A stretch of DNA of 64,000 bases from a virus. Position 1 is the first letter of the stretch. Each line of letters starts with the position of its first letter. Of the stretch, positions 769 through 62,091 are shown one piece after another. A model generated the notes under the pieces. The model made no database searches. It was given only the letters and a program-made list of their open reading frames with translations, and was not told where the DNA came from. The DNA is taken from the IMG/VR virus record IMGVR_UViG_3300027365_000009, positions 62,001-126,000 of that record; one strand, given 5' to 3'. The translations under genes were made by a program, and so were the position numbers.

Positions 769-2928
769 TTACACGACCACCACACGAAAGCGGGTGCCTT
801 CCCCATCAATCAAACCAACCTTTTCAATCCGCACACGCCCATCTGGTTCCAATGTGTAGTTCTGAAGCGTAGTGGGCTGCTGTACAGACGGTACCGCATG
901 GTTGTATTCCACAAAGAAAGGAATATTCATGGTCAGTACGTTCGTATTTCCAAACGGTTCCTTATAGAAAATGTTGAAATACGATGTGGTGTTAAAGCCA
1001 TCATGGTAGATCACCGAGATGTTCTTCAACATGCAGGTGGACGGGACATTGTCAATCTCTAACGTATTCCCGCCACTTTGGGTAATGGTGATCTGGGACG
1101 AGTCAGTTTCTGACCCAAAGATCACCAGGTTAACAAAACATTCAACGCCGTTATGGGTGAATGTGTACTCACGGGCATGAGGAACCCCACTGCCGGCAGT
1201 GCCGCCTGAAGTACCCCCTCCAGGAATATCGACAGTTACCTCACCTGCGCTTTGAGTGGTGGTGACACCCGCTCCGGTGAAATTAAGGTGTGTAGCCGCG
1301 GCGGTGAGCTCAGTTCCTTCATCACTAACCGCAACGGATTGACCAGGTTCGCCTTGCGGGCCCATGGGGCCTTCGGGACCCTGAGGGCCTTCGGGGCCGA
1401 TGGGACCAACCTCCCCCTGAGGACCTTGGGGACCCACAAGTGAAGTCAACCACTCCGTCTCCGTCCCCACGAAGCCGTTTGTTACCGCCACATCATAAGC
1501 ACTGTCGCCCTCTAATGAGACGAGCCATTCGCTTTCGGTACCCACATACCCGTTATTGACGGCGATTTCATAGGCAGATTCAGCACTGGTGACGCCTGCA
1601 TCCAACCAATTCATTCCATCGAAATAGTAGAGCTCGTCGGTACCTACCAGATAGACGGTTCCCTGTGTTGCGTCGGTTGGGAGCTCTCCGAACGTTGCTA
1701 CTTGACCGTCAATCTGTAACCCGTGGCCAGCGGGACCTTGTGGGCCCTCGGGACCCTGAGGGCCTTCAGGACCGGTAGGGCCTTGCGGGCCCATAGGACC
1801 TTCGTCCCCAGCAGGTCCGACAGGACCCTGTTCACCCTGGATGCCCTGCGGACCTACCAATGAGGATAACCATTCGGTTTGGGTGCCCATGAACCCATCA
1901 TTTAAGGCAACCTGATAGGCACTGTCGCCTTTCTCCCCCTTCAGGGTATCGAGCCACTCGGCTTCTGTCCCAGTAAAGCCCTGGGCAACCGCACTGTCGT
2001 AGGCAGAGTCTCCTTGAAGGGTATCCAAGAACTCTTGTTCCGTACCTGTGAATCCCTGCGCTACGGCTAATTCATAAATGCCCTGACCATCTTGTCCATG
2101 GAGGCTGTTCAGCCAGTCATTTAATGTGCCGGTATACCCCTGCTCTACCGCATGGTCATACGCACTGGGTCCGGGTTCACCTTTCAGTGACTCCAGATAT
2201 TCCTGCTCAGTCCCGGTAAAGCCCTGCTCTTGAGCAAGCGCATATGCCGATTTACCCTCCAGTGATGCCAGGTAGGTGGCGAGATCGCCCGTGAAGCCCT
2301 CCTGAACGGCGAGATCGTAGGAAGAGGGGCCAGGGTCCCCCTGAGGGCCCGGCTGGCCCTCAGGGCCTTGTATGCCCTGTATACCGGCATCGCCTTGGGG
2401 ACCCTCTGGCCCAATGGGACCCTCCGGGCCTTGAGGACCCTGGAGACCCATTTCGCCTTGAGGACCTTGGGGGCCCTCCGGGCCTGTGGGTCCCTGGGGT
2501 CCGGGAGGACCCTGAATACCGCCTGCGTTTAACCAGCTCTCTCCTATCCAGACATGGAGTTCACCGTCGATCAAATACGCATCGCTTTGTGTTGCATCGG
2601 TGGGCAACTCCGCGGTTGAAAGTAACTCCCCTTTCAGCACCACCACTGCTGCCGGATCGCCTTCGGGTCCTTGCGGTCCTACGGGCCCTGCAGGGCCTTC
2701 TGGCCCCACCAGACTACTAAGCCATTCCGCTTCTGTTCCGGTAAAACCCTGTTCAATTGCCAGGTCATAGGCAGACTTACCGTCGGTACCCACCATGTCT
2801 TTCAAGCGGTAACGGCGGTTTTGCCAGGGTTCGAAGGTGTCACTACGTTCAATGACCTCAATAAAGACATCGCGTCCTTGGATGTCGACTAACTCACTTA
2901 GCTGGGAAATCTTTCTCGGTCCCGCCAT
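769..2928 (-). CDS. Collagen-like phage fibre protein (719 aa)
   Basis: Probable virion fibre or adhesin. The start [10 protein letters not shown] has a good AAGGAG ribosome site at about -10. After a short N-terminal anchor (residues 1-45; the KISQL motif is shared with the next gene) the chain alternates two things. One is collagen-type Gly-X-Y tracts (GPQGPEG, GPTGPEG). The other is about nine copies of a 25-residue helical repeat with core [15 protein letters not shown]. Two further modules of the type ELPTDATQ...YLxG...W (about residues 97-140 and 410-455) are inserted. The last 170 residues have no repeats and look like a beta-rich globular head. It precedes the 1,297-residue relative in the same orientation. 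Collagen tracts in phages usually form trimeric fibre shafts; the trimer and any receptor role are inferred. Confidence 0.85.
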
Positions 2929-2962
2929 GGGATTCTCCTTTTACAAACTGGATACATCACAA

Positions 2963-2998
2963 CATAACAGGGCGGGCGACATGGCCCGCCCTGTTATG
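2963..2998. terminator. Perfect 15-bp hairpin between the two collagen-like genes
   Basis: CATAACAGGGCGGGC (2963-2977) and its exact complement (2984-2998) enclose a 6-base loop. It lies 12 bases past the stop of the 1,297-residue gene and upstream of the 719-residue gene, so it can end or attenuate read-through on the minus strand. There is no long T-run, so it could instead stabilise an mRNA 3' end. Confidence 0.6.
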
Positions 2999-3009
2999 TG
3001 TTAGTGGGT

Positions 3010-6000
3010 TTAGACTGCTGGTGCAATGGTACCTTCGTCGTTGACCCAATCCCCTGCGGCTTCGTCGTAGTAGACGCCGAGTTGATCGAGCAGGAAGGTT
3101 TCCAGGGCTACTGGGGTGACCGCTTTATCGACCACAGTGGTATTGGGTTGCATGTCAGCTGTCGCATCAGCAAAGCCCAGCGGTACCCAAGTCCCATCAC
3201 CTTTCCGCACATACGTCAGAGTCGGGTCGGTATCGGGCACCTCCTCCACTTCGGCAGTCAGGATTGCCCAGGCACCGTCAATACGAACGTATTGCTGTCC
3301 ATCGACAGGGGCTTCTTCCACCTCAGCGGTTTGGACTTCCCAGAGACCATTCTTACGCACGTAAGCCTGATTGTCCTCTGGAGCCTCTTCCACTTCAGCG
3401 GTCAGCACTGCCCATTCGGCATTCAGACGCACATACTGTTGGCCGTCTTGAGGGGCCTCGTAGACGGTACCGCCACCCAGGTAACCCATCGCGGACCAAG
3501 TGGTATCAGAGACCTTCTGGAACCACTGGTTAGTGACTGAGTTGATGGCGAAGTCGCCGATGTCCCCAGTCACGGCGTCGGGGTCGTAATCCCGGGCGAT
3601 CCAGCGGTTACCGTTGAGGCTATCCAGCCAGTCGATCTCAGTACCCACATAGTCAGGGTACTGTTCGAGATAGACTTCATATGCTGACGGACCCCGAATA
3701 TCGCCCATGTCGAGCCAGCTGCCCGCACTGGCTACCCACAGGAAGATGTGATCACCCACCTGGTAGGCTTCACCCTGGAAACTCCCCGCCGTAGGCAGGT
3801 CGGCTTGAGATGCCAATTCGCCTTCGATGATGATACCCAAGGCATCGGCGCCCTGTGGACCTTGGAGGCTATCTAACCACTCCTGCTCGGTCCCAGTGAA
3901 GCCCGCATCGACAGCCACTTGGTAAGCGGACTTACCCTGGAAACCGATCAGGCTATCCAACCACTCCTGACGAGTCCCGACGAAGCCTTCATTAACCGCC
4001 ACTTCATACGCGGAGTAACCGCGCGGACCGACGAGCGTGTCGAGCCATTCTGCCTTGGTTCCGGAGAACCCTTCGGCTACAGCAATGGCGTAGGCACTAT
4101 CGCCTTGGGCACCCTTGATCGACTCGAGCCACTCGGCTTCAGTGCCCACGAACCCACCAGCAACCGCGATGTCGTAGTTGCTGTCACCCTTGTCACCTTT
4201 GAGGGAATCCAGGAACTCCTGTTCGGTGCCCACAAAACCATTATCGAGGGCCACGGCGTAGGCATCACCCCCCTTCAGGGAGTCCAACCATTCGGTTTCA
4301 GTACCTGAGAAGCCCTGCTCAACAGCCACCTCATACGCGGAGGGACCTTCCAGCGACTCAAGCCATTCGGCTTCGGTACCTGTGAAGCCACCAGATACCG
4401 CAGCATCATAGGCTGACGGACCCGTATCGCCTTGGATACCCTGATCGCCCTGCGGGCCTTTCACAGTGCCCAGGTTCTTCCACTGGTCGTTGACCCAAGC
4501 GTACAGGTCCTCACCCACTAGATAACCTTCACCAACGGTACCGGAGGTGGGAAGCTCACCAGTGGTTGCGACACTGTCCACGATATTCAGGCTCGGACCG
4601 GGGTCGCCCATGTCACCCTGCGGACCTTGAGGGCCTTGGGGACCGACCAGCGACTCCAACCACTCACCGGCCGTACCAGTGAAGCCGTTGGCTACAGCCA
4701 CCTGGTAAGCATCATCACCTACCAGTGATGCCAACCATTCACTGCGGGTTCCGGTGAAGCCATCAGCCACTGCGACGTCGAAGGCATCCCCACCCTTGAG
4801 GGATTCGAGCCACTGACCCACACTGCCCGAGAAGCCGTTTTCCACCGCCTGCTCGTAGGCAGACGCGCCGACCAGGCTATCCAGCCACTCTTGTTGAGTA
4901 CCCACGAAGCCTTGATCCAGTGCTACCTGGAAGGCGCTATCCCCGGCCAGCGGACCAGCATTGACCCACTCACCTGCCAGACGCAGATACAGGTCAGACC
5001 CTGCCACGTAGGCTTCGCCGTCTGCACTGTCAGTCGGGAGGTCAGCTTCCGTCGCCACCACACCGGTGATGTTCAGGCCAGTGCCCATCGGACCCGCCGG
5101 ACCTTGCGGGCCGACCAGGGTATCGAGCCACTCTTGCTCGGTACCACTGAACCCCGTGGAGAGAGCCACTTCATAGGCGGACTTGCCAACCAGGGTCTGG
5201 AGCCACTGAGTCTCAGTACCATTGAATCCCTGGTCTTGAGCGTGTTCAAAGGCCGACTTACCGGTAGCGCCTTGGAGGCTGTCCAGGAACTCTTGCTCCG
5301 TTCCCACGAAACCGTTCTGCACCGCTACGGAATAGACGGAGTCGCCCTCGAGGGTACTCAGCCAGTCGCTTTCCGTGCCCTGGAAGCCATTGTTAACGGC
5401 AACGTGATAGGCGCTGTCACCATCATCACCCTTGGGACCCTGAACCCCCTGGATGCCTTGCTCGCCCTGAGGACCGACAACAGGACCCACGTCCAGCCAC
5501 TGGGAGTCGTCCCAGACGTAAAGGTTCTCACCAATGAAGTAGGCATCGCCCGGGGCGTTACCTGATGCCGGAAGGTCGCCCACAGCGGCGACTTTGCCCA
5601 GGACCTTGATGGCCGCAGACGGTTCACCCTTGGGACCTTGAACCCCTTGGATACCCTGATCCCCCTGAGGACCAACGAGGCTATCGAGCCATTCGGCGCG
5701 GGTGCCGGTATAGCCATCAGCCACGGCCACTTCGTAGGCATCGCCCCCTTTCAGGGAGTTAATAAAATCCTGTTCGGTACCCACGAATCCGGTGGAGAGG
5801 GCGACCTGATAGGCGCTATCACCAATCAGGCTGTCGAGCCACTCACTCACGCTGCCAGCAAAGCCATTAGCCAGGGCCAGTTGGTAGGCGCTGTCACCTT
5901 CCAGGTCTGCCAGCCACTTCTGGACGGTGCCTTCATAGCCCTGCTCCACGGCCAGGACATAGGCCGACTTACCGTCCGGACCGGTCTGACCGACAGGCTC

Positions 6001-6903
6001 CCACTCAGTACCTTCCCATACGTACATCATGTAATCGATGATGTAAGCATCACCCGGGGCGTTGTTCTGCATCGGCAGGAATGCCGTGTCTTCAAAACTA
6101 CCCAGGATACGCAGGCCGTTACCGGTACGCCCTTGCAGGGAGGCGAGCCACTCTTCCTCGGTACCAATGAACCCATCAGCGACGGCGATTTCATACGCGG
6201 ACATCCCGCGCTCACCACCAAGGGTATCCAGCCACTCCTGACGGGTGCCGGTGAACCCTTCTTCCACGGCAATCTCGTAGGCGTTCTCGCCTTTGAGCGA
6301 TGCCAACCATTCTGTTTCGGTTCCGGTAAACCCGTCATCGACCGCCACCTCAAAGGCGCTCTTGCCGGTCTCTCCTACCAGGGAGTCCAGGAACTCCTGC
6401 TGGGTACCCACAAAACCTTCAGAGACCGCGAGGTCATACACGGACATCCCGGTCTCGCCCTGAGGACCAACCAGGGATGCCAGGAACTCAGCTTCAGTAC
6501 CCACAAAGCCGTTTTGTTGGGCGAGCTCATAGGCGGAATAACCACGGGGACCTTGGTCACCGGTATCACCTTTCACGCCCTGGATACCTTGGTCGCCTTG
6601 CGGTCCAATCAGGTGGTCAAGCCATTCCTGTTCGGTACCGGTGAATCCGTTTTCCACGGCCACGTTGTAGGCAGACCAGCCACGGGGGCCTTCAGGACCC
6701 ACAAGGGTGTCCAGCCACTCTTGGCGTGTGCCTTCAAAACCTTGATCGACAGCCACCTCATAGGCATCTTTACCGATCAGCTCGCGCACATAAGCGCTGA
6801 GGTTCTCAAATCCGCCACCAAACGAAGGACGGATAACTTCCAACATCTCAGTGCCGGATAAACCACCCGCCGCTTCTAATTGAGAAATCTTCCTGTTGGC
6901 CAC
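3010..6903 (-). CDS. Giant collagen-like repeat fibre protein (1,297 aa)
   Basis: Paralogue of the 719-residue fibre gene. The start is GTG at 6903 (product MANRKISQLEAAGG) behind a strong GAGGAGG ribosome site. I count about 27 copies of a 25-residue repeat (core GFxGTxxEWLxSLxG, usually preceded by SAYEVAV), some separated by Gly-X-Y tracts (GPQGDQGIQG). Five larger modules (ELPTS...GDAYxxGxxLYVW...W) are inserted at intervals. Near the C-terminus there are four copies of a 24-residue unit with core EAPxDGQxYVR and W. No hydrolase motif is visible. A long fibre shaft is the likely role. The repeats diverge in DNA sequence, so they are old rather than recent copies. The last 50 residues have no repeat and may form the tip. 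Confidence 0.85.
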   Translation of the reverse strand: MANRKISQLEAAGGLSGTEMLEVIRPSFGGGFENLSAYVRELIGKDAYEVAVDQGFEGTRQEWLDTLVGPEGPRGWSAYNVAVENGFTGTEQEWLDHLIGPQGDQGIQGVKGDTGDQGPRGYSAYELAQQNGFVGTEAEFLASLVGPQGETGMSVYDLAVSEGFVGTQQEFLDSLVGETGKSAFEVAVDDGFTGTETEWLASLKGENAYEIAVEEGFTGTRQEWLDTLGGERGMSAYEIAVADGFIGTEEEWLASLQGRTGNGLRILGSFEDTAFLPMQNNAPGDAYIIDYMMYVWEGTEWEPVGQTGPDGKSAYVLAVEQGYEGTVQKWLADLEGDSAYQLALANGFAGSVSEWLDSLIGDSAYQVALSTGFVGTEQDFINSLKGGDAYEVAVADGYTGTRAEWLDSLVGPQGDQGIQGVQGPKGEPSAAIKVLGKVAAVGDLPASGNAPGDAYFIGENLYVWDDSQWLDVGPVVGPQGEQGIQGVQGPKGDDGDSAYHVAVNNGFQGTESDWLSTLEGDSVYSVAVQNGFVGTEQEFLDSLQGATGKSAFEHAQDQGFNGTETQWLQTLVGKSAYEVALSTGFSGTEQEWLDTLVGPQGPAGPMGTGLNITGVVATEADLPTDSADGEAYVAGSDLYLRLAGEWVNAGPLAGDSAFQVALDQGFVGTQQEWLDSLVGASAYEQAVENGFSGSVGQWLESLKGGDAFDVAVADGFTGTRSEWLASLVGDDAYQVAVANGFTGTAGEWLESLVGPQGPQGPQGDMGDPGPSLNIVDSVATTGELPTSGTVGEGYLVGEDLYAWVNDQWKNLGTVKGPQGDQGIQGDTGPSAYDAAVSGGFTGTEAEWLESLEGPSAYEVAVEQGFSGTETEWLDSLKGGDAYAVALDNGFVGTEQEFLDSLKGDKGDSNYDIAVAGGFVGTEAEWLESIKGAQGDSAYAIAVAEGFSGTKAEWLDTLVGPRGYSAYEVAVNEGFVGTRQEWLDSLIGFQGKSAYQVAVDAGFTGTEQEWLDSLQGPQGADALGIIIEGELASQADLPTAGSFQGEAYQVGDHIFLWVASAGSWLDMGDIRGPSAYEVYLEQYPDYVGTEIDWLDSLNGNRWIARDYDPDAVTGDIGDFAINSVTNQWFQKVSDTTWSAMGYLGGGTVYEAPQDGQQYVRLNAEWAVLTAEVEEAPEDNQAYVRKNGLWEVQTAEVEEAPVDGQQYVRIDGAWAILTAEVEEVPDTDPTLTYVRKGDGTWVPLGFADATADMQPNTTVVDKAVTPVALETFLLDQLGVYYDEAAGDWVNDEGTIAPAV

Positions 6904-16634: not shown

Positions 16635-17012
16635 CTACTGCTTTCATATGGCATCGTTACTACCATACCGTCCCGTCGTTGTATATCCAACGATGGACTG
16701 CTCCAGGCTTTCCCTGGACGTAAAGACTATATCTTCTCCTTCAGCATGACCTGGTCAGGAGGCTCCCATTTCGAGGTCACTTGACCCCTACACCGTGGTA
16801 AACGGTTAGTCGTTGAACGTTCCCCGTGGGGTCCTTTAGGACCCGGTAGGGGCTTCGCTGCTGATTGCCCAATCCTTCTACTTGTCAAGCCGTCAACACC
16901 TGCTTTCGCGGTGCTTGTGGCAAGAAGGCTCTAAGGGGTTCCCAGCAATTAGAGAGCATTCACTTAACCCTTTCGGATTAAGCGGACTGTGTTACTGCAC
17001 TCGGCAGTCACA
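16635..17012 (-). ncRNA. Group I intron 2 in the RNA polymerase beta gene (no ORF)
   Basis: A 378-base insertion with group I core elements read on the minus strand: P-like AATTGCTGGGAAC near 16939-16950, R-like GTTCAACGACTA at 16807-16818, and S-like GAAGATATAGTC at 16725-16736. The predicted 5' exon ends in T (..GGTGAT at 17013) and the intron ends in G (..GCAGTAG, then AAATTCGTC), as expected. Removal joins GD to K in the active-site motif GDK. It holds no open frame of useful size and so depends on its own RNA fold and possibly trans-acting mobility. The exact boundary could be off by a few bases. Confidence 0.85.
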
Positions 17013-17933
17013 ATCACCAACCCCCGCAGGGATGTCGTGGTCAATGTACACCTGAATGGCCAGGGTATCCGGATCAAGCGCATTACCTTCCACACGGAAA
17101 CTGGTATCGACTTCCCCGGTAAAGGGAGGTTGACCCAATTGTTTCGCACGCTTCTTGCGTTGCTTGTCCGACCATCCCGCCAGTTCTTGGAGGGATTCTG
17201 AGAGGTCCTCAAATTCCCCGTGGTAGAAACACTCCACACGACTGACCGTACCGACCACCTTCGCTCGGGGTGTCATCGCTGACAGACGCCGTAACGTATC
17301 GAGTGCGGCGTCGTCAAATAACGGATTCTCGGCAGTCTCCGGATCTTCAATCGTACATAAGATTGTCTCGAGGTCAACGTGATCACCCTCTTTAACGAGA
17401 CCTGAGACACTTTGGTCGAACTTCACCTGAATAGTTCGTACCTCCGTGGTCTGGGTGGTCATCTTTTTGGCCATGGCCTCAGAGATCACCGAGCCATCTT
17501 CCAGCGTGTCAATGTTGTCGATCAATGCAGTACGACAAAGGGCTCCCGGCTTTAACGTCACCTGACCAGGATTGAACACATCGGGGGTGAAGTACTTTCG
17601 GTTATAGGCAATGACATCGCCTTGGTTAACCTTATCCCCTTTCTTGAAGTCAGTGACGACCTCGTGCGGGTAAGTTACCCCGGCCGCTTTACCGTAGCGC
17701 TTCCCCAACTCGACCTTCTTGACACTTCCATCTGTATACGTCACGGTAATGGCGGTCTTGGTAACATCAGTGACCTTACCATCGGCCTCCGCCGTGGCCG
17801 CAAACAGATCCGTCATTCGGTGCGGAATGACCTGTTCATAGCCTGTCCGGAGTGGAATCGGCTCATACCCATCAGCATACACACTCTGTTGATTCTGGAT
17901 AGCGACAAAATTTATTCTTTTTGCATCGTCATG
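17013..17933 (-). CDS. RNA polymerase beta subunit, exon 2 of 3
   Basis: Encodes 307 residues beginning HDDAKRINFVAIQNQQS, aligning with E. coli beta HDDANRALMGANMQRQ. It continues through a region like the bacterial flap and external-2 domains (YPHEVVTDFKKGDKVNQGDV, VNQGDVIAYNRKYF, GALCRTALI), and ends LAIQVYIDHDIPAGVGD just before the GDK lysine. The open frame begins right after the intron-1 end, with no proper start codon or ribosome site, and ends a few codons inside intron 2. Both facts support splicing. Confidence 0.87.
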
Positions 17934-19994
17934 CAACTATGTTCAGTTACACCGCTACGTGTAACCCGCGATCCGATTGCTGTGAGGCAACCGAACGCTG
18001 CTCTAGGTCTCCCTAGAAGTTCAGACCATATCTTCTTCCCTTTTAAGGAAGCCTCCCATTTCGGAATCGCTTGATTCCTACTCCCCTGCCGGGGATGGTC
18101 GTTGAACGTTCCCCGTAGGCGCTCTAGGAGCGCCCGTAGGGGCTTCGCTGCTAAAGGGGGTCTTAGACCCCACGGTTGTCCATTGCTGCTCTTGGAGAGC
18201 TTTATCCGTCCCGTTGTTAGACCGTCGACGTCTGCTTTCGCGACGCCTGTGGTGGGACAGCTTTAGGAGTTCCCAGCAATTAGAGAGGTTATCATTCTGA
18301 AATTTCTTTCAGAAGGGACCATGTCGAGTTCATTCCCAATCTTCTTTTGAAGACAGTTTACGAACCTGCGTACCTTTACTATGCACTTCCTTACAGCTCT
18401 GACGCAACCAACTGAACATGGTAGATTTACCCACCCCTATCGCCGTGGCTGCTTCAGTTATACTTCCATAACAGGACACCACTCCTGTAGTAACATCTCT
18501 AACTTCGACGGGTTCTTTATTATTAGGCGCTTCGAGAATTTCTTCTTCGGAAACGTCGCGCCATGGAGACGCATCACTCTTTTTCTTTATTAAAAACCGA
18601 CAATCCCATAACGGCTGTCCGGCAGCTGCAATACGTCGAGTCATTTGTGGTTTAGAAATACCAAGGGCGTGTGCGGCGTCTTTCTGCCTCTCGTATTCCT
18701 TTACTTCGCCACTTACAACGTCTTTAACAAGAACCTTATTGCTGCGACCATAGAGTTGAAGTTCTCGTTCGGGATCGTCTACTTTTCTCCACGGCGTTGG
18801 GTCGTTCTTAAATTTCATTAAAACACCAGGTGGTATGAGGGGCTGATTTTTTCTCTTTAGCCAATAAACCACCGTATTACCCGATACGCCAAATGCTTCA
18901 CCACACTTGTGCATACTCTCATAGGTGGTTATTTCGCCTGTATACACATTCTTAACATCGACCCGACGTTCCCACTTTTCAAAAAGAGGTTCTGTGGCTA
19001 AATCCACATCACGCCACGGGGTTAAATCCGATTTGAATTTAACTTGTATATTACCGACGAAGACGGGCTGGTTAGGGCGTTTAAGATAATCATTAATGAC
19101 CCAAATATCCACCCCTAACTCTTTAGCGCATTGAAGTTTTGAATTATATTCCCTTACGATATTTTCATCCAAATACCGCACCAGAACAGGTTGGGGGGCA
19201 TTAGTAGTATTCTCTCTAATTTTACCTCTATCGCGCGTTGTATTCCACGCATGGATATGATTTTCACTCACTGTTGTCCATTCGAGGTTATCCAACCCGT
19301 CGTTGCCTGGAATACCATCAATATGGTTAACGTGTAATTGTTTATAGTTATTGGGGTAATTCGAATACGCCAACATCATTGCGCGATGCCGACCTAGGTT
19401 TGTCCTTCGATTGTCACTATCGCGTTTTATTTGATAGATAACGTAACCACTATCCATGACTGAATAGGGTGCAACTTCCCCACTCAGTACATGTATCACC
19501 ACACCTTCCCGATTTATTGCATATTGGGTATAATCGGGAATATAAGCGTAGCCTGGCCGAAGGAATGGCTCAAGTCCATTCGGTATTTTAAAATGTAAAT
19601 TATTAGGGTGGTGATTGGTGAGATCACCATCGTCGAAGCCCACCTCAATGAGATGCCAGAATTCTACTGGTATCCATATTGAGTTAAAAGTGAATGCGAT
19701 AAGTCTCGCCACTTTATGGGGTTTGATGTTACCTAGCCAACTGACTTTAGTCCAACGCAAGCCATCTCGGTCAGGGTATGTGTTAATAACCCGTTCCTTC
19801 TTACCTGTGACTTCGCCAAGTCGACTAACAAACAATGTTGCGGTGCTGTAAGGTACTGGCAGTAAGGCATTATCGTCGTAAAACATAGGGCATCCGTTGG
19901 TTGACTGAGATATGCTCATAAAGTTACTTAGGTGAGTGAAAACACACCGAAACTAAATTTCATACTCGTCCAACGGATGGTAACTCAAACGTTA
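17934..19994 (-). ncRNA. Group I intron 1 in the RNA polymerase beta gene, carrying an HNH endonuclease
   Basis: A 2,061-base insertion between codons for ..PCAD and HDDAKR. Core elements on the minus strand are P-like AATTGCTGGGAAC (18270-18281), R-like GTTCAACGACCA (18096-18106) and S-like GAAGATATGGTC (18024-18035). The predicted 5' exon ends in T (GCGGAT) and the intron ends in G (CATAGTTG). The exon GCGGAT can pair with ATCCGT about 20 bases into the intron as a P1-type helix. The homing endonuclease ORF fills 18330-19919, 5' of the core. PCAD-HDD aligns without a gap to E. coli PFLEHDD; another in-frame boundary a few bases away cannot be excluded. Confidence 0.85.
18330..19919 (-). CDS. 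Intron-encoded HNH homing endonuclease with NUMOD-type repeats (529 aa)
   Basis: Promotes intron spread by cutting intronless polymerase genes (family role). Residues 1-110 hold a first module with HNH-like remnants (LTNHHPNNLHF). Residues about 112-240 hold a NUMOD4-like start (YAINREGVVIHVLSG) and the HNH core: LGRHRAMMLAY, HVNHIDGIPGNDGLDNLEW and TVSENHIHAWNT. The C-terminal half carries four DNA-binding repeats of about 70 residues, each with a helix-turn-helix (CAKELGVDIWVINDYL, CGEAFGVSGNTVVYWL, AAHALGISKPQMTRRI, AATAIGVGKSTMFSWL). The first three repeats each end in a PWRxV motif. The length and repeat number are well above usual HNH endonucleases (about 170-250 residues). AT-richer than its neighbours, consistent with separate acquisition. 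Confidence 0.88.
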   Translation of the reverse strand: MSISQSTNGCPMFYDDNALLPVPYSTATLFVSRLGEVTGKKERVINTYPDRDGLRWTKVSWLGNIKPHKVARLIAFTFNSIWIPVEFWHLIEVGFDDGDLTNHHPNNLHFKIPNGLEPFLRPGYAYIPDYTQYAINREGVVIHVLSGEVAPYSVMDSGYVIYQIKRDSDNRRTNLGRHRAMMLAYSNYPNNYKQLHVNHIDGIPGNDGLDNLEWTTVSENHIHAWNTTRDRGKIRENTTNAPQPVLVRYLDENIVREYNSKLQCAKELGVDIWVINDYLKRPNQPVFVGNIQVKFKSDLTPWRDVDLATEPLFEKWERRVDVKNVYTGEITTYESMHKCGEAFGVSGNTVVYWLKRKNQPLIPPGVLMKFKNDPTPWRKVDDPERELQLYGRSNKVLVKDVVSGEVKEYERQKDAAHALGISKPQMTRRIAAAGQPLWDCRFLIKKKSDASPWRDVSEEEILEAPNNKEPVEVRDVTTGVVSCYGSITEAATAIGVGKSTMFSWLRQSCKEVHSKGTQVRKLSSKEDWE

Positions 19995-39709: not shown

Positions 39710-39830
39710 TGACGTCACCGCTGTCTAAACGTTCTGTTCGCGGTAAAAACTACTGGTTGTTGCAATGATACACCGGGGGTCGTTTGACCTCCACTTATTC
39801 AGGCCCTACCAAAGGAAGGATTGCGTTATC

Positions 39831-40226
39831 ATGTTGATTCCGGCTCACGAGCGGCGTGTGATGCGTCACGACAGCGAAACCCTGATGCACACCCCGTCGT
39901 CCAAATCCCCCTTCGATATGTTCCATAAGGACGCCGTGTCACACCCCAGTGACAGTTATTCCGAGAACGAACTCGAGGCCATGTCCCACAGTGAGTTGGC
40001 TGACCTCAGTGACTTTAGCGTTACCACCATCCGCATTCGGCGTGAGAAGAAAGGGCTATGTGCTCGGGATTCGGTCGTTCGTGCGACGTTAACCTCTTCC
40101 AGTCATTACCGGGCCCTTGCCCAAGACAATGATATCACCTATCACAAGTTAATGGCGGCTCGACGTAAGTACCCGGATGTTGCACTAACGGACATCGTTG
40201 AACGTCTCAAGATGGGGAAGAAGTGA
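39831..40226 (+). CDS. Helix-turn-helix protein, first of a tandem pair (131 aa)
   Basis: The start MLIPAHERRVMRHDS follows AAGGAAGG at about -12. The middle reads SYSENELEAMSHSELADLSD, then VTTIRIRREKKGL, a helix-turn-helix-like unit; a second unit follows at HYRALAQDNDITYHKLMAAR. The next gene has the same two-unit plan with about 30% identity by eye, so the two are tandem duplicates. They are probably DNA-binding regulators; targets unknown. The 4-base gap shows tight coupling. Confidence 0.75.
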   Translation: MLIPAHERRVMRHDSETLMHTPSSKSPFDMFHKDAVSHPSDSYSENELEAMSHSELADLSDFSVTTIRIRREKKGLCARDSVVRATLTSSSHYRALAQDNDITYHKLMAARRKYPDVALTDIVERLKMGKK

Positions 40227-40229
40227 TCC

Positions 40230-40622
40230 ATGCGTTTATCCGCCCATGAGAAATCCCGACTTACGCAATCACGATACAGTGAAGAAGAACTAAGTAAGAT
40301 GAGCTGGCGCGAGTTATCTAAACTCAGTCGGTTCAGTCATCAGGCGATCCGTTACCGGGTAGTCGAAATGGGGATGTCCTACCGGGATGCTATCACCAAA
40401 CCACAGACACCTCGAACGTCTAAGGTGTCTCAGTTGGCAGAAGAACACAATCTCGGGTATTCCACACTGATGAGCCGTAAACGCCGAAACCCCAACGTTC
40501 CGCTTGAGGTACTCGCTAAACAACCGTTACTTGACCCCTGTGAGTCCTCCCGCCGCGCTAACGATCAGAAAAGGAGGCGTCTTGAGCAAAACCAAACAAC
40601 GTCGTCAAGCAGCGTACAATGA
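40230..40622 (+). CDS. Helix-turn-helix protein, second of a tandem pair (130 aa)
   Basis: Starts MRLSAHEKSRLTQSRYSEEE. The first unit is RYSEEELSKMSWRELSKLSR with FSHQAIRYRVVEMGM; the second is VSQLAEEHNLGYSTLMSRKR. The pattern matches the preceding gene, including the (S/R)YSExEL start and the Arg/Lys-rich second helix. The end is Gln/Ser-rich. The first RMF-like gene begins inside its 3' end. Confidence 0.75.
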   Translation: MRLSAHEKSRLTQSRYSEEELSKMSWRELSKLSRFSHQAIRYRVVEMGMSYRDAITKPQTPRTSKVSQLAEEHNLGYSTLMSRKRRNPNVPLEVLAKQPLLDPCESSRRANDQKRRRLEQNQTTSSSSVQ

Positions 40623-40770
40623 AGGGTATCGTGATGGACAGGCGGGTGTTCGCCCCAAGCGTCGACATAAACTCCCCGGCTTTTACCGCCGGGGATATAA
40701 TCGGGCTATCCGAGAAGAACGTCTGAAACGACCTAAACACCTATCTTTCGATGACGACTATCTGGATTGA
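40582..40770 (+). CDS. RMF-like protein 1 (62 aa, soluble)
   Basis: TTG start with a perfect AAAAGGAGG. The product contains AAYNEGYRDGQAGVRPKRRH followed by FYRRGYNRAIREE. E. coli ribosome modulation factor (55 residues) has AHQRGYQAGIAGRSKEMCPY and WLGGWREA at the same spacing, and RMF is similarly small and basic. RMF dimerises 70S ribosomes into inactive 100S particles in stationary phase. This is one of three related proteins within 1.7 kb. The assignment rests on pattern and size. Confidence 0.68.
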   Translation: MSKTKQRRQAAYNEGYRDGQAGVRPKRRHKLPGFYRRGYNRAIREERLKRPKHLSFDDDYLD

Positions 40771-40772
40771 CC

Positions 40773-41054
40773 ATGGGACGCCATCACCATAAACGAGGTC
40801 GTCAAACATTGGATACCCTTTACTATCAGGGACGTGCCGATGGACGACGGGGACGACCTTACACGATGATACATGCCAAGAAACTCCGTGGGGTATGGTA
40901 CTGGCATGAAGATCGGTATTGGCAAGGGTATCGGGATGGGAAATGTGAAGGAACACCGTGGGTACTTGCGATTTGGCAGAAACGATGGGCGCGCCAAGTC
41001 TGCTACCTTTTCCTCGCTTCCGGTCTCACTGTTGCCATCCTTAGTTTATTATAA
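40773..41054 (+). CDS. RMF-like protein 2 with C-terminal membrane helix (93 aa)
   Basis: The ATG at 40773 lies 2 bases after the previous stop. The RMF-like core is LYYQGRADGRRGRPYTM and DRYWQGYRDGKCEGTPW. It is followed by a membrane-helix candidate at the C-terminus (VCYLFLASGLTVAILSLL). The core is basic, which fits rRNA or ribosome contact; the tail would anchor it in the membrane. Paralogue of the genes at 40582 and 41955. Confidence 0.7.
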   Translation: MGRHHHKRGRQTLDTLYYQGRADGRRGRPYTMIHAKKLRGVWYWHEDRYWQGYRDGKCEGTPWVLAIWQKRWARQVCYLFLASGLTVAILSLL

Positions 41055-41169: not shown

Positions 41170-41361
41170 ATGTTCAAACACATTAACATTCCCAATGTTG
41201 GTTATTTTTCCGTGACTGAAAACAGCGCCAAAGGTCGCCACCGGTGCGTGGGTATGCGCCCACTACTGACGGAAGAATCAACCCGCCCAATTACTGAAGA
41301 AAAGCAACGCTATATCAATGAGATTCAACAGCGAATCATGAGAAAACCCAATGACCGATAA
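41170..41361 (+). CDS. Small hypothetical protein (63 aa)
   Basis: Strong AGGAGGTG before the ATG. Basic product (MFKHINIPNVGYFSVTENSA; EEKQRYINEIQQRIMRKP). It overlaps by 11 bases the leader reading frame that carries the 55-bp repeat. Family not recognised. Confidence 0.75.
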   Translation: MFKHINIPNVGYFSVTENSAKGRHRCVGMRPLLTEESTRPITEEKQRYINEIQQRIMRKPNDR

Positions 41362-41405
41362 CATCCGTAACACCATGTTCGGACCGAATGCAACGTTCGG
41401 TAGAA
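41351..41405 (+). repeat. 55-bp direct repeat, copy 1 (upstream of dihydrofolate reductase)
   Basis: Identical over all 55 bases to 43475-43529, which is the beginning of the thymidylate synthase gene. It contains the inverted repeat CCGAA...TTCGG. Flanking bases differ on both sides, so the identity ends sharply. Confidence 0.95.
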
Positions 41406-41437
41406 ACGCACTTTTTGATATGGGAATCCCTTTATGA
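41351..41437 (+). CDS. Leader ORF sharing the ThyA N-terminus (28 aa)
   Basis: ATG to TGA frame made mostly of the 55-bp repeat: MTDNIRNTMFGPNATFGR followed by NALFDMGIPL. Its first 18 residues equal residues 2-19 of the predicted thymidylate synthase. Its stop overlaps the dihydrofolate reductase start in ATGA, the usual coupling arrangement. It is either a coupled leader peptide or a relic of a duplicated thyA 5' end. Expression is unproven. Confidence 0.45.
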   Translation: MTDNIRNTMFGPNATFGRNALFDMGIPL

Positions 41438-41958
41438 TGATTTCGCTAATTGCGGCAGTAGGGACCAACCGTGTGATCGGTCACGAAGGAAAGATTCCTT
41501 GGTACGTGCCGCGGGACTTCCGGTTCTTTAAGAAGGCCACCACGGGGTGTCCGTGTATCATGGGACGAAAGACGTTCGACTCATTGCCAGGGCCCTTACC
41601 AGAACGCCTCAACCTCGTTTTGACGCGCCACCCTCATCTGGTGAACGTCAAAGGGGGTAACGTACTTCCCCATGCTGAGTGGAGGCATCTCCTGAACAAG
41701 GCGATCCAGTATGCCGAGAACAACCACTCCCCTCGAATCGTCATCATGGGCGGTGAAGACGTCTACCGTCAGTTTATGCCCCTTGCCCACGAATTGCTCT
41801 TGACTCGCATTCGCTATGATGGACCGGGCGATACGTTTTTCCCCGAACTACCACCCAACGAATGGGAGCTTGTCGAAACGATGGACATCTCCGAAGAGGC
41901 GCTTGTGCAACGATACGGGCGCTGTTTTCCCGAGACTATTATGCCGTTATTCCCGTGA
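41434..41958 (+). CDS. folA: Dihydrofolate reductase
   Basis: Reduces dihydrofolate to tetrahydrofolate with NADPH, regenerating the cofactor used by thymidylate synthase nearby. Family motifs: ISLIAAVGTNRVIGHEGKIPW (first 20 or so residues), PRDFRFFKKATTG, IMGRKTFDSLPGPLPER and IVIMGGEDVYRQFMPLA. 174 residues, close to the bacterial size. The start could be ATG at 41434 or 41437. It overlaps the leader ORF (ATGA) in front and the third RMF-like gene (GTGA) behind. Confidence 0.95.
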   Translation: MMISLIAAVGTNRVIGHEGKIPWYVPRDFRFFKKATTGCPCIMGRKTFDSLPGPLPERLNLVLTRHPHLVNVKGGNVLPHAEWRHLLNKAIQYAENNHSPRIVIMGGEDVYRQFMPLAHELLLTRIRYDGPGDTFFPELPPNEWELVETMDISEEALVQRYGRCFPETIMPLFP

Positions 41959-42254
41959 CGCGGCGCGCCCAACGAGAGCGCACGGTGTTTGAGCAGGGGT
42001 TTGCTGACGGACAAAAAGGACGCCCTTTCCGTTACAACAAACCCACCAAGCGTCGGCGTGGGCACGATGGAATACCGGGGCGATACTCCCATCTGTACTG
42101 GTATTACACCAAATATCAAGCTGGTTACAAGCTAGGGAAAGAAAGTCGGGGCACCTACTGGCTCCATCAACCAAAAGTGTCCAAGTGGGTAGTGAAGTGC
42201 CTCATAGGGGCACTAGGAGCTCTTCTGGTGGTTTCTTTTTATGCGGCACTGTAA
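41955..42254 (+). CDS. RMF-like protein 3 with C-terminal membrane helix (99 aa)
   Basis: GTG at 41955 overlaps the dihydrofolate reductase stop (GTGA). The core FEQGFADGQKGRPFRYNKPT and TKYQAGYKLGKES matches the two RMF-like genes 1 kb upstream. The C-terminus is a clear membrane helix (CLIGALGALLVVSFYAAL). The coupling to folA means it is made in the same amounts as a metabolic enzyme, not as a separate regulator. Confidence 0.7.
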   Translation: MTRRAQRERTVFEQGFADGQKGRPFRYNKPTKRRRGHDGIPGRYSHLYWYYTKYQAGYKLGKESRGTYWLHQPKVSKWVVKCLIGALGALLVVSFYAAL

Positions 42255-42265
42255 GGGGTGGAGTC

Positions 42266-42436
42266 ATGACAAAAAACAAACACGAGCGCTTGTTGATCGA
42301 AATACAGCGTGAGTTAGAAATCTTACAGCGAGACCTTAAAATAGCCATTAACACCCGTCCCGAGGACGCCATCGGGATTTGTATCAGGACACGGCGAGTT
42401 ATTAAACGACTGTCGGTCATGAAAGAGCCCACCTAA
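42266..42436 (+). CDS. Small coiled-coil protein (56 aa)
   Basis: The ATG at 42266 follows GGGGTGGAG. Almost entirely helical with heptads (LLIEIQRELEILQRDLKIAI) and a basic end (RTRRVIKRLSVMKEP). No family recognised. Confidence 0.7.
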   Translation: MTKNKHERLLIEIQRELEILQRDLKIAINTRPEDAIGICIRTRRVIKRLSVMKEPT

Positions 42437-42453
42437 TCAAAGAGGACCACCTC

Positions 42454-43206
42454 GTGAGCAATGACAACATCACACAGCTTAACTCGTTTCGCAGCAAGAA
42501 ACGCAACCGCGAACGGCTTGAGGACAATCAGGCGTTCAACCAAAGACTAGTGGATGACGTGGCCGCACTGAACCGGATCTTGAATCCTCAGCGATTAGCG
42601 CTGGATGGGTTTGTAGAGGCCATCCGGGGGTATATGCGCTTGTCCGCTCGGACATTGGCCGAAGATCCCCACAATCCGATAGCCGGCCAGTTTATTGGAG
42701 GTGTTGAACAAGGAGGTGACGACCCCAATAGCGTGGTCCTCGTTTTTTACAACGGCTTTGTTGTTGATGGTGCAGTGACCGTTGAGGACCTCCCTAACTA
42801 CCAGATCAACCGTCTTGCCTGTACAGTCCTTGACACTCCCCAGTGGTTTCCTACGGTCCTTGATGACGACGCGGTATTCGCCGCTATGGAAAACGACATT
42901 GAGACGTTCCACGAGGGGCGTCCGATTCTGCAGGAGTTTGCCCACCTGTATTTGCTGTCAATTACGGCACTTCAGCGCCTTGAGTTCAAAATGACCCACT
43001 ACGTTTTCCATGACGGCGTGATGGAACTGACCCTGGTTAACCGAGCGGAGCAGGTCGCCATATCTCTCGATGTGAAACAACTAATCCTCTCGGCCGAAAA
43101 GGTAGCCAGGAAGTACCGAGAGGGTCTTCATCACATCACCCAAGAAGAGGCTCGGGACCTGGGGGTGGAAGTTGAGAAAGACTGGCTGGAAGAGAACCCG
43201 AAGTGA
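42454..43206 (+). CDS. Hypothetical protein (250 aa)
   Basis: GTG start after AGAGGACC. Soluble; N-terminus Gln/Asn/Arg-rich (NSFRSKKRNRERLEDNQAFN), then alpha/beta (PNSVVLVFYNGFVVDGAVTV, EFAHLYLLSITALQRLEFKM) and a charged C-terminus. No catalytic motif recognised. It lies between the small coiled-coil gene and thyA's upstream gene in one compact run. Confidence 0.8.
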   Translation: MSNDNITQLNSFRSKKRNRERLEDNQAFNQRLVDDVAALNRILNPQRLALDGFVEAIRGYMRLSARTLAEDPHNPIAGQFIGGVEQGGDDPNSVVLVFYNGFVVDGAVTVEDLPNYQINRLACTVLDTPQWFPTVLDDDAVFAAMENDIETFHEGRPILQEFAHLYLLSITALQRLEFKMTHYVFHDGVMELTLVNRAEQVAISLDVKQLILSAEKVARKYREGLHHITQEEARDLGVEVEKDWLEENPK

Positions 43207-43243
43207 CGTAGCCGTAAATCGATAATTGAAAAAGGATATCCCC

Positions 43244-43447
43244 ATGTCAGACAGCTCCCACCGTATTCCGGAAGCCCTCAACATCAATAGCCTTATGTCG
43301 TGCGCTATGTACAACCCCAACCCCGGGATTGGGCGAGACGCAATGTTCTCCACCCCCGCAGAAAGACAGAGGTCGGCTGTCCAATTCGCTGAGCGGGATT
43401 TGAAGAAAATCGCCGACATTCAGAAAAAGATTGCTCGCCGTACTTGA
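43244..43447 (+). CDS. Small hypothetical protein (67 aa)
   Basis: The ATG at 43244 follows AAAAAGGA. The product includes SCAMYNPNPGIGRDAMFSTP and a helical Arg/Lys-rich end. The PNPGIGRDAMF segment is loosely like the FGPNATFGR motif of the neighbouring ThyA N-terminus, which may be chance. It ends 24 bases before thyA. Confidence 0.7.
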   Translation: MSDSSHRIPEALNINSLMSCAMYNPNPGIGRDAMFSTPAERQRSAVQFAERDLKKIADIQKKIARRT

Positions 43448-43471
43448 TTCAACCCAACCGAAAAGGAATGT

Positions 43472-45016
43472 ATGATGACCGATAACATCCGTAACACCAT
43501 GTTCGGACCGAATGCAACGTTCGGTAGAACCTATGTCGACACTCAAACCCCCAACAGTAAGGACATCACAGTGACCAAGCGTTTTGAACTTCCCAAATCC
43601 CTAGTTAACGTCGCCAAAACCCAGAAGGGCCAGGAGATCCTGAAGAAAGCGCAGCAGGGCATACCGCAAACCATGGAAGAACACGATGCTGACATCTTTC
43701 CGAAGTTTCCCGAAAACAACTACGAGGAACACCAATACCTATCGCTCCTGGAGCATATCCTTGAGAATGGTCAATATAAGGGAGACCGTACTGGGGTGGG
43801 ATGTTACTCCGTGTTCGGTGAGATGATGCGGTTCGACCTCAAGGGCGGAAAGATCCCGCTACTGACTACCAAGAAGATGGGGATTAAATCCATCATCGCT
43901 GAACTGCTGTGGTTCCTGGAAGGATCTACCGACAATCGCCGACTCAACGAGCTCGGTGCGACTATCTGGGACGAGTGGGCACTAGAGAACGGCGACCTGG
44001 GTCCCATTTATGGGAAGTGGTGGACGGCCTGGGAAGTGGTGGACAACCACCACATCGAAACAACCCTCCATGAGGCACTAAACGACCTTAATAGTGATAA
44101 GGAAATCGCGAGAGCCCGTCTGTCGGGACTTCTTGAGTACATTAAAAACCCACCCAAGATTAACCAGATTCAGGAGCTAGTCACCGCGCTTAAGGAGAAC
44201 CCCACCTCGCGCCGGATGCTGGTGACTGCTTGGAACCCGGCAGTTCTTCCCCGTGATGTCAAGTGGGAGTATAATTGGCTTGACCCCATGGCGGCGACGG
44301 AAGCGGTACATACTCGCTGGGAACCCATGTCGTTTGACCAGCGGGCGGACTGGCTCTGGGAAACCAAAGGAATCGGTAACGGTGTTTTTGAAGAGGACTA
44401 CCTCGAAGAGTACAATGCTCCCACTCACCGACGGCGTGTGAAAGTATCGCCTCAGGATAACGTCAAGGAAGGACGCGCAGCACTTCCGGCATGTCACACC
44501 ATGTTCCAGGTTCATACTCGGGAGCTATCGGTGGATGAACGCCTTAACATAGCAGAACGCACAGTCAGTGACGGGGTGGCGTTAGACGAAATGTTCGAGT
44601 TGGCAATTTGTGGTTTGGTCGACGATGACAAAGAGGTCATCCAACGGGAACTTGTTGAAAAACTGGACGCAGTGTCGGTTCCCAAGAGGGCCCTGACGCT
44701 ACAGTTCTACGCTCGTTCCCAAGACACGCCGCTTGGAACACCGTATAACATCGCTTCCTACGCAATCCTTGCCCACATGCTGGCGCAATCGGTTGGGATG
44801 GTTGCCGAAGAGTGCATCTGGATGGGAGGCGATTGCCATATCTACAGCAACCAACTCGAAGGCGTCAAAGTCCAATTGGAGCGTGAACCCAGAAGTTGGC
44901 CAACGATTAAACTTAACCCTGACGTAAAGGATATTTTCTCCTTTACAACTGAAGACATTGAACTGATCGGGTACGAACCTCACCCCAAGATTGATTTTGG
45001 GCCGGTTGCGATATAA
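43472..45016 (+). CDS. thyA: Thymidylate synthase, enlarged (514 aa)
   Basis: Makes dTMP from dUMP using methylene-tetrahydrofolate. Catalytic motifs are intact: GDRTGVG, LLTTKKMGIKSIIAELLWFL, TIWDEWALENGDLGPIYGK, the LPACH nucleophile (Cys near residue 340), PLGTPYNIASYAILAHMLAQ and GDCHIYSNQLE. It is almost twice the usual 264 residues. There is an 80-residue N-terminal extension, plus inserts after the GPIYGKWW region, between WNPAVLPRD and LPACH, and about 50 residues after FQVHTRELS. All stay in frame with no intron core elements, so they are protein-level inserts. The first 55 bases from 43475 are duplicated upstream of folA. Confidence 0.93.
   Translation: MMTDNIRNTMFGPNATFGRTYVDTQTPNSKDITVTKRFELPKSLVNVAKTQKGQEILKKAQQGIPQTMEEHDADIFPKFPENNYEEHQYLSLLEHILENGQYKGDRTGVGCYSVFGEMMRFDLKGGKIPLLTTKKMGIKSIIAELLWFLEGSTDNRRLNELGATIWDEWALENGDLGPIYGKWWTAWEVVDNHHIETTLHEALNDLNSDKEIARARLSGLLEYIKNPPKINQIQELVTALKENPTSRRMLVTAWNPAVLPRDVKWEYNWLDPMAATEAVHTRWEPMSFDQRADWLWETKGIGNGVFEEDYLEEYNAPTHRRRVKVSPQDNVKEGRAALPACHTMFQVHTRELSVDERLNIAERTVSDGVALDEMFELAICGLVDDDKEVIQRELVEKLDAVSVPKRALTLQFYARSQDTPLGTPYNIASYAILAHMLAQSVGMVAEECIWMGGDCHIYSNQLEGVKVQLEREPRSWPTIKLNPDVKDIFSFTTEDIELIGYEPHPKIDFGPVAI
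43475..43529 (+). repeat. 55-bp direct repeat, copy 2 (5' end of thyA)
   Basis: Exact copy of 41351-41405. Here it encodes residues 2-19 of the enlarged thymidylate synthase, before the conserved core. The two copies are in direct orientation, 2.1 kb apart, and flank folA plus four small genes. Confidence 0.95.
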
Positions 45017-45022
45017 GAAGAC

Positions 45023-45048
45023 GAGGGGAGGGCTATAGCCCTCCCCTC
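45023..45048 (+). terminator. Hairpin terminator after thyA
   Basis: GAGGGGAGGGC-TATA-GCCCTCCCCTC, a perfect 11-bp stem six bases after the thyA stop; no long T-run follows. Confidence 0.7.
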
Positions 45049-61599: not shown

Positions 61600-62091
61600 A
61601 TGGATATGCAATCACCCAATGAGACCCCTGCGGTGTTCGTTCAATCACGGCCTTTTACCATCAAGATGGGGGAGTCCTGCTTTGGCCTACAAACCACGGA
61701 CGCTGATAGCGTTCAACACACGACGCTTACCCTGTATCAGGAAGAAGGCGGTGCCAATACCATTATTCAAGCCGAAGGGCAGGTGGTAGCCACTACAGTC
61801 GAACCCATCATGGGCGTTGATGAAGAAGGCAAGGTTATTGCTGACCGGTCAGTCGGGGCCTATATTGGTGTCCTCACCCAGTGTCAAGACGACGTTTTTA
61901 TTGTCACCCTCATCATCGAGGGTACTGATGGAATCTTCCATGAGCAACGGTCGGTGTCCGTGGAGTGTGATCGGAAAGACGACCTAGTGTTAAGTTATCA
62001 TCACCACCATAACTGCGTTTTCATTACGTCTAACCGAAAGAACGGGACCTTGGCCCGCATCGATAACATCCGCAAAGGAGTCGCCGCGTGA
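61600..62091 (+). CDS. Hypothetical protein (163 aa)
   Basis: Start at ATG 61600, the closest to TAAGGAT at proper spacing; in-frame ATGs at 61594 and 61606 are alternatives. Beta-rich ([40 protein letters not shown]), resembling small immunoglobulin- or jelly-roll-like domains. Ends [20 protein letters not shown]. It overlaps dcd by 4 bases (GTGA). Confidence 0.75.

Follow-up and report, generated by a model that had tools for sequence, protein, structure and literature searches.

An exact 55-nt coding repeat shared by a small open reading frame upstream of folA and the start of thyA in a phiKZ-like phage

Gene content of the folA-thyA region

The DNA analysed here (the window) is a stretch of 64,000 nucleotides, positions 62,001 to 126,000 of the viral record IMGVR_UViG_3300027365_000009, which comprises 149,876 bases in all. 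It encodes dihydrofolate reductase (folA, with PF00186 over residues 2-153) and thymidylate synthase (thyA), and an exact direct repeat connects a 28-codon ORF (p28) upstream of folA with the front of thyA (Table 1). From p28 through thyA, as far as the palindrome downstream of thyA, genes follow one another closely on a single strand, an arrangement that would fit common transcription of folA and thyA.

Table 1. Features of the folA-thyA region (positions in the window)
Feature	Position	Strand	Remarks
p63	41170-41361	+	small gene, strong SD; stop codon inside repeat copy 1
p28	41351-41437	+	28-codon ORF between p63 and folA, overlapping both; fills 72-nt gap
Repeat copy 1	41351-41405	+	p28 codons 1-18 plus one base; exact match to copy 2
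Hairpin	41383-41401 (copy 1), 43507-43525 (copy 2)	+	predicted 8-bp stem
folA, dihydrofolate reductase	41434-41958	+	PF00186, E = 3e-45
p250	42454-43206	+	between the copies; no Pfam, PHROGs or phage tblastn match
p67	43244-43447	+	67-aa gene directly before thyA; MYNPNPGIGRDAMF, codons from 43307
thyA, thymidylate synthase	43472-45016	+	PF00303, E = 1e-90; 86-residue N-terminal extension
Repeat copy 2	43475-43529	+	thyA codons 1-18 plus one base, from the second ATG, which SD spacing favours
Perfect palindrome	45023-45048		terminator-like; downstream of thyA

The TGA of p28 overlaps the ATG of folA (41434; an alternative ATG lies at 41437), and the SD of p28 itself is weak. Three small proteins (40504-40770, 40767-41054 and 41958-42254) with an EGYxDGQ/ADGxxGRP motif are those that the first-pass annotation of this DNA had termed RMF-like; the latter two match each other at E = 2e-4, and none of the three has a Pfam match to RMF. 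Another local duplication is represented by two adjoining paralogous genes (39765-40226 and 40230-40622; 34% identical).

Other repeated elements occur farther away in the window. Two group I introns (Rfam RF00028) lie on the minus strand at 16703-17029 and 18001-18348 (E = 2e-14 and 9e-14), and pieces 70-80% similar to them are found in the record (G000) at G000:13880-14182 and, in the related contig G001 described below, at 76205-76453 and 90041-91143. These dispersed elements are probably introns of the same family; compensatory changes are seen in 16 of 44 predicted pairs. Many repeats of 60-70% similarity (1342-6765) lie within a long minus-strand ORF (3010-6903) of tail-fibre-like appearance, with collagen-like stretches.

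Extent and coding character of the repeat

By exact comparison, all 55 bases are identical between the two copies, which are spaced 2124 nt apart; the identity ends sharply, the neighbouring bases differing on either side. No third copy of the 55 nt occurs elsewhere in the 149,876-base record, and the runner-up in a search for all exact direct repeats of the record measures 25 nt, so that the pair is far beyond chance. The first-pass annotation had described a perfect 55-bp direct repeat with abrupt ends, beginning in thyA after the first codon and forming upstream a 28-codon ORF whose stop overlaps the folA start. Each of these statements is borne out, and the search for additional copies that it proposed returned none within the record.

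The two copies share one reading frame, in which they encode the peptide MTDNIRNTMFGPNATFGR, and in both places the codon use is coding-like. With codon-usage statistics derived from the record's long genes, the repeat scored +0.14 in the shared frame versus -0.77 and -1.25 in the two remaining forward frames, and p28 as a whole scored +0.11 versus -0.56 and -1.01; for reference windows of 28 codons the scores were +0.23 +/- 0.13 (in frame) and -0.61 +/- 0.33 (out of frame). The 14 codons that follow, from copy 2 to an internal GTG in thyA, scored +0.29. Such statistics, drawn from short stretches, support without proving that the repeat is protein-coding at both sites.

The N-terminal extension of ThyA

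The PF00303 domain of the thyA ORF begins at residue 87, which leaves 86 residues before it as an N-terminal extension whose tip is encoded by the repeat. The domain is full and includes the catalytic cysteine (C341, invariant among 42 sequences). Other phages' ThyA proteins begin at the domain (KQYL or HQYL) and lack an extension; this also holds for the phiKZ-like phages compared, unlike the extended ThyA described here. The ATG at 43475, which is the first base of the repeat, lies at a better spacing (6 nt) from the SD sequence AAAGGAA than does the listed start at 43472. At both sites, then, the start codon is probably the very first codon of the repeat. The internal GTG (43571), preceded by a good SD, is a possible alternative start.

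In an AlphaFold2 model of ThyA, built with 41 viral relatives, residues 1-38 had pLDDT values below 50 and were followed by a modest helical segment (42-63) and then by the well-predicted enzyme. The N-terminal tail is thus probably disordered in the model, although the low confidence may instead reflect the extension's lack of homologues.

A diverged third relative of the repeat peptide

Directly before thyA, p67 contains MYNPNPGIGRDAMF, which aligns with MFGPNATFGRNALF of p28; the two proteins share a 14-residue motif. Their local alignment scored 42, as against 18.5 +/- 4.0 for shuffled sequences, and none of 1000 shuffles reached 42. A profile of p67 and p28, run over the six frames of the record, singled out p67 (61), p28 (59) and thyA (38), the next score being 27 and shuffled profiles reaching 30.5; since p67 and p28 had built this profile, their own scores are expected, and the weight lies on the alignment and on an independent single-sequence scan. 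The latter gave the same ranking with a smaller margin (39 for p67 versus a shuffled maximum of 30.2 +/- 3.3). The match between p67 and p28 extends beyond the end of the repeat (NALF/DAMF, p = 0.0007), where thyA reads TYVD. By its sequence, p67 is a diverged third relative of the repeat peptide, one that was absent from the first-pass annotation. A single-sequence structural model of p67 was uncertain over the motif and confident over the helix that follows (residues 38-66).

Paralogy between p63 and p67, by which a unit of such a gene plus the repeat would have been duplicated, was also considered. It was not accepted: one of ten comparisons gave p = 0.03, and there was no BLASTP match.

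Relatives of the phage and wider searches

On the basis of matches to its capsid, sheath, RNA polymerase and internal head proteins, the phage is phiKZ-like; its major capsid protein is approximately 46% identical to gp129 of phiKZ and its relatives. A scan with the capsid protein recovered five related contigs (G001-G005). Of these, G001 (IMGVR_UViG_3300009194_000005) is the same phage, overlapping the record by 70,878 nt at 99.999% identity and extending it by approximately 45.6 kb on the left. The extension includes a homologue of the phiKZ nuclear shell protein gp54 (40% over 585 aa, E = 4e-125). Since G001 ends at record base 70,878, short of the thyA locus of the window, the repeat is not covered.

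The repeat peptide was not found in G002-G005. G002 encodes a DHFR of 31% identity without a leader ORF of the p28 kind, and the ThyA of G003, 43% identical in its best part, has a short N-terminus. In G003 the genes that flank the present region stand within approximately 1 kb of each other, a folA/thyA block of approximately 10 kb being absent there, and thyA lies elsewhere. The accessory block, as judged from the flanking genes of G003, corresponds to 39.7-49.2 kb of the window (101.7-111.2 kb of the record). The ThyA of G003 (G003:222280-224751, the L075 region) is interrupted precisely at its catalytic Cys by a long in-frame insertion (LPPC...VVNHNCHTLF), intein-like by eye.

Among 80 viral thyA loci, none encodes p28, p67, p63, p250 or the thyA extension. 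One of them, L063, gave an alignment from thyA residue 15, which was rejected as a homologue of the extension, the L063 ORF having none. Single-sequence scans of IMG/VR yielded no close relatives of thyA or folA, a scan of IMG/VR with two degenerate peptide patterns gave no match, and tblastn of p28 against phages produced nothing better than E values of at least 3. In one genome from each of 84,980 bacterial and archaeal species, the peptide pattern matched once, in a Clostridia bin, where the short ORF concerned overlaps the beginning of a sigma-factor-like gene; this lone match is within chance expectation and was rejected.

Origin of the repeat

The best explanation for the repeat, which we consider reasonably probable, is that a small coding segment of p28 was recently copied in frame onto thyA. 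The first 18 codons of p28, just upstream of folA, would have been copied in frame to the front of thyA through a short recombination or copying error, and ThyA would have gained MTDNIRNTMFGPNATFGR at the tip of its probably disordered N-terminal extension. The copied unit would comprise 54 nt in frame, the match of the 55th base possibly being due to chance. Within this scheme, p28 and p67 would be old relatives, and the local micro-family would consist of p28, p67 and now ThyA. A recent duplication had already been put forward in the first-pass annotation, and it accords with the lack of a single difference in 55 positions, with the sharp ends and with the diverged third copy, which suggests the direction. 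Transfer was probably from p28 to thyA, p28 being the source and thyA the recipient because the similarity to p67 continues past the end of the repeat into p28's own tail, a comparison of four residues. No relative is known that carries the same thyA minus the insertion, and we infer the copying event rather than see it.

Among the ordinary changes of phage genomes are short in-frame duplications and fusions that join a small ORF to an adjacent gene. The present case has the same short exact copy, sharp ends, preserved frame and neighbouring gene as source; it differs in that the unit appears to begin exactly at the start codon and in that the peptide has a third, diverged relative encoded between the copies.

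The 55-nt element could also be a maintained RNA or leader-peptide signal before both folate-cycle genes, as proposed in the first-pass annotation. ThyA or DHFR might bind the hairpin, for instance, or translation of the peptide might be coupled to that of folA. The same codons directly precede both enzymes, the stop of p28 overlaps the start of folA, and a precedent exists in human thymidylate synthase, which autoregulates at its own mRNA, binding a hairpin located at the start codon (PMC4274661). In both systems a hairpin stands close to where a thymidylate synthase gene begins; compared with the human one, the phage hairpin is weak, follows from the peptide, is found downstream of the start codon and is at most a putative binding site. 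The stem of 8 bp (ACCGAAUG/CGUUCGGU) does exist, as had been noted, but it is not unusual in context: the folding z was -1.80 for the isolated 55-mer and -0.47 and 0.02 in the two natural contexts, neither of which has the stable structure beyond composition that is expected of a leader RNA. At four of the five stem positions (CCNAA/TTNGG), the codons of Pro-Asn (CCN AAY) can pair with those of Phe-Gly (TTY GGN). The PN..FG of the peptide makes the stem almost by itself, so that a binding site gains no independent support from the hairpin. Moreover, the thyA copy sits within the coding region rather than in a separate leader, p67 retains the peptide despite its differing sequence, and Rfam gave no family at threshold in the repeat region. 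DHFR was encoded nearby in 16 of the 80 viral thyA loci, and no repeat-like element was found in the 15 comparable thyA-folA pairs, whose start regions have only 8-12 nt in common (a value of 79 for L103 was disregarded, the two compared stretches overlapping). A regulatory leader serving both enzymes is unlikely in the light of these results.

Recombination between the copies would delete folA, the third RMF-like gene (p98), p56, p250 and p67, in agreement with the first-pass annotation, which had listed folA, the third RMF-like gene and three small genes. It had suggested further that the segment may be a movable cassette; its 2,124 bp, running from the first copy to the second, would enter or leave by recombination between the direct repeats. 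Such repeats do stand at both ends, thyA would remain in frame downstream of p63 after excision, and the region is variable among relatives. In the comparison of relatives that had been proposed for the cassette, none turned up with the same gene neighbourhood; the absence of the block from G003, the single relative to retain the flanking genes, indicates a variable region, in which the differing unit is approximately 10 kb and not the 2.1 kb that separates the repeats. No recombinase is encoded between the copies (Pfam, PHROGs), no contig with the excised form was found, and we regard the cassette as very unlikely. An origin of the repeat, or of one of its junctions, in the assembler itself would account for the length of exactly 55, a value commonly chosen for the k-mer in a widely used assembler; apart from the record, no contig covers the locus. 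Yet p28 fills a gap between genes and matches p67 across its junction, and thyA keeps its frame, its coding bias and an SD placed for the ATG of the repeat, all of which make an artefact improbable.

Possible role of the repeat peptide

Under the favoured explanation of a copy from p28, the resulting tail of ThyA would be tolerated or would serve as a short docking peptide. The repeat peptide may be nearly neutral; if it is functional, it most likely acts as a short docking peptide or protein appendage rather than as an RNA switch. A more specific proposal, to which we give a low probability, is that the peptide (M[FY]xPNxxxGRxAxF), carried by the free peptide p28, by p67 and, in shortened form, by ThyA, is a short docking module through which they bind one partner in a phage that probably forms a nucleus. 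Its carriers could gather dTMP synthesis, for example, at one site, and p28, with its translation coupled to folA, could be a competitor or regulator. A role as an import tag for the phage nucleus was set aside, since metabolic proteins are reported to lie outside the nucleus in model phages (PMC8191949).

Should the peptide have a function, this locus would illustrate in simple form how a phage tags one of its metabolic enzymes with a micro-gene's peptide. Should it have none, the locus would provide a clean recent example of how N-terminal extensions of phage enzymes may arise by copying the first codons of a neighbouring gene.
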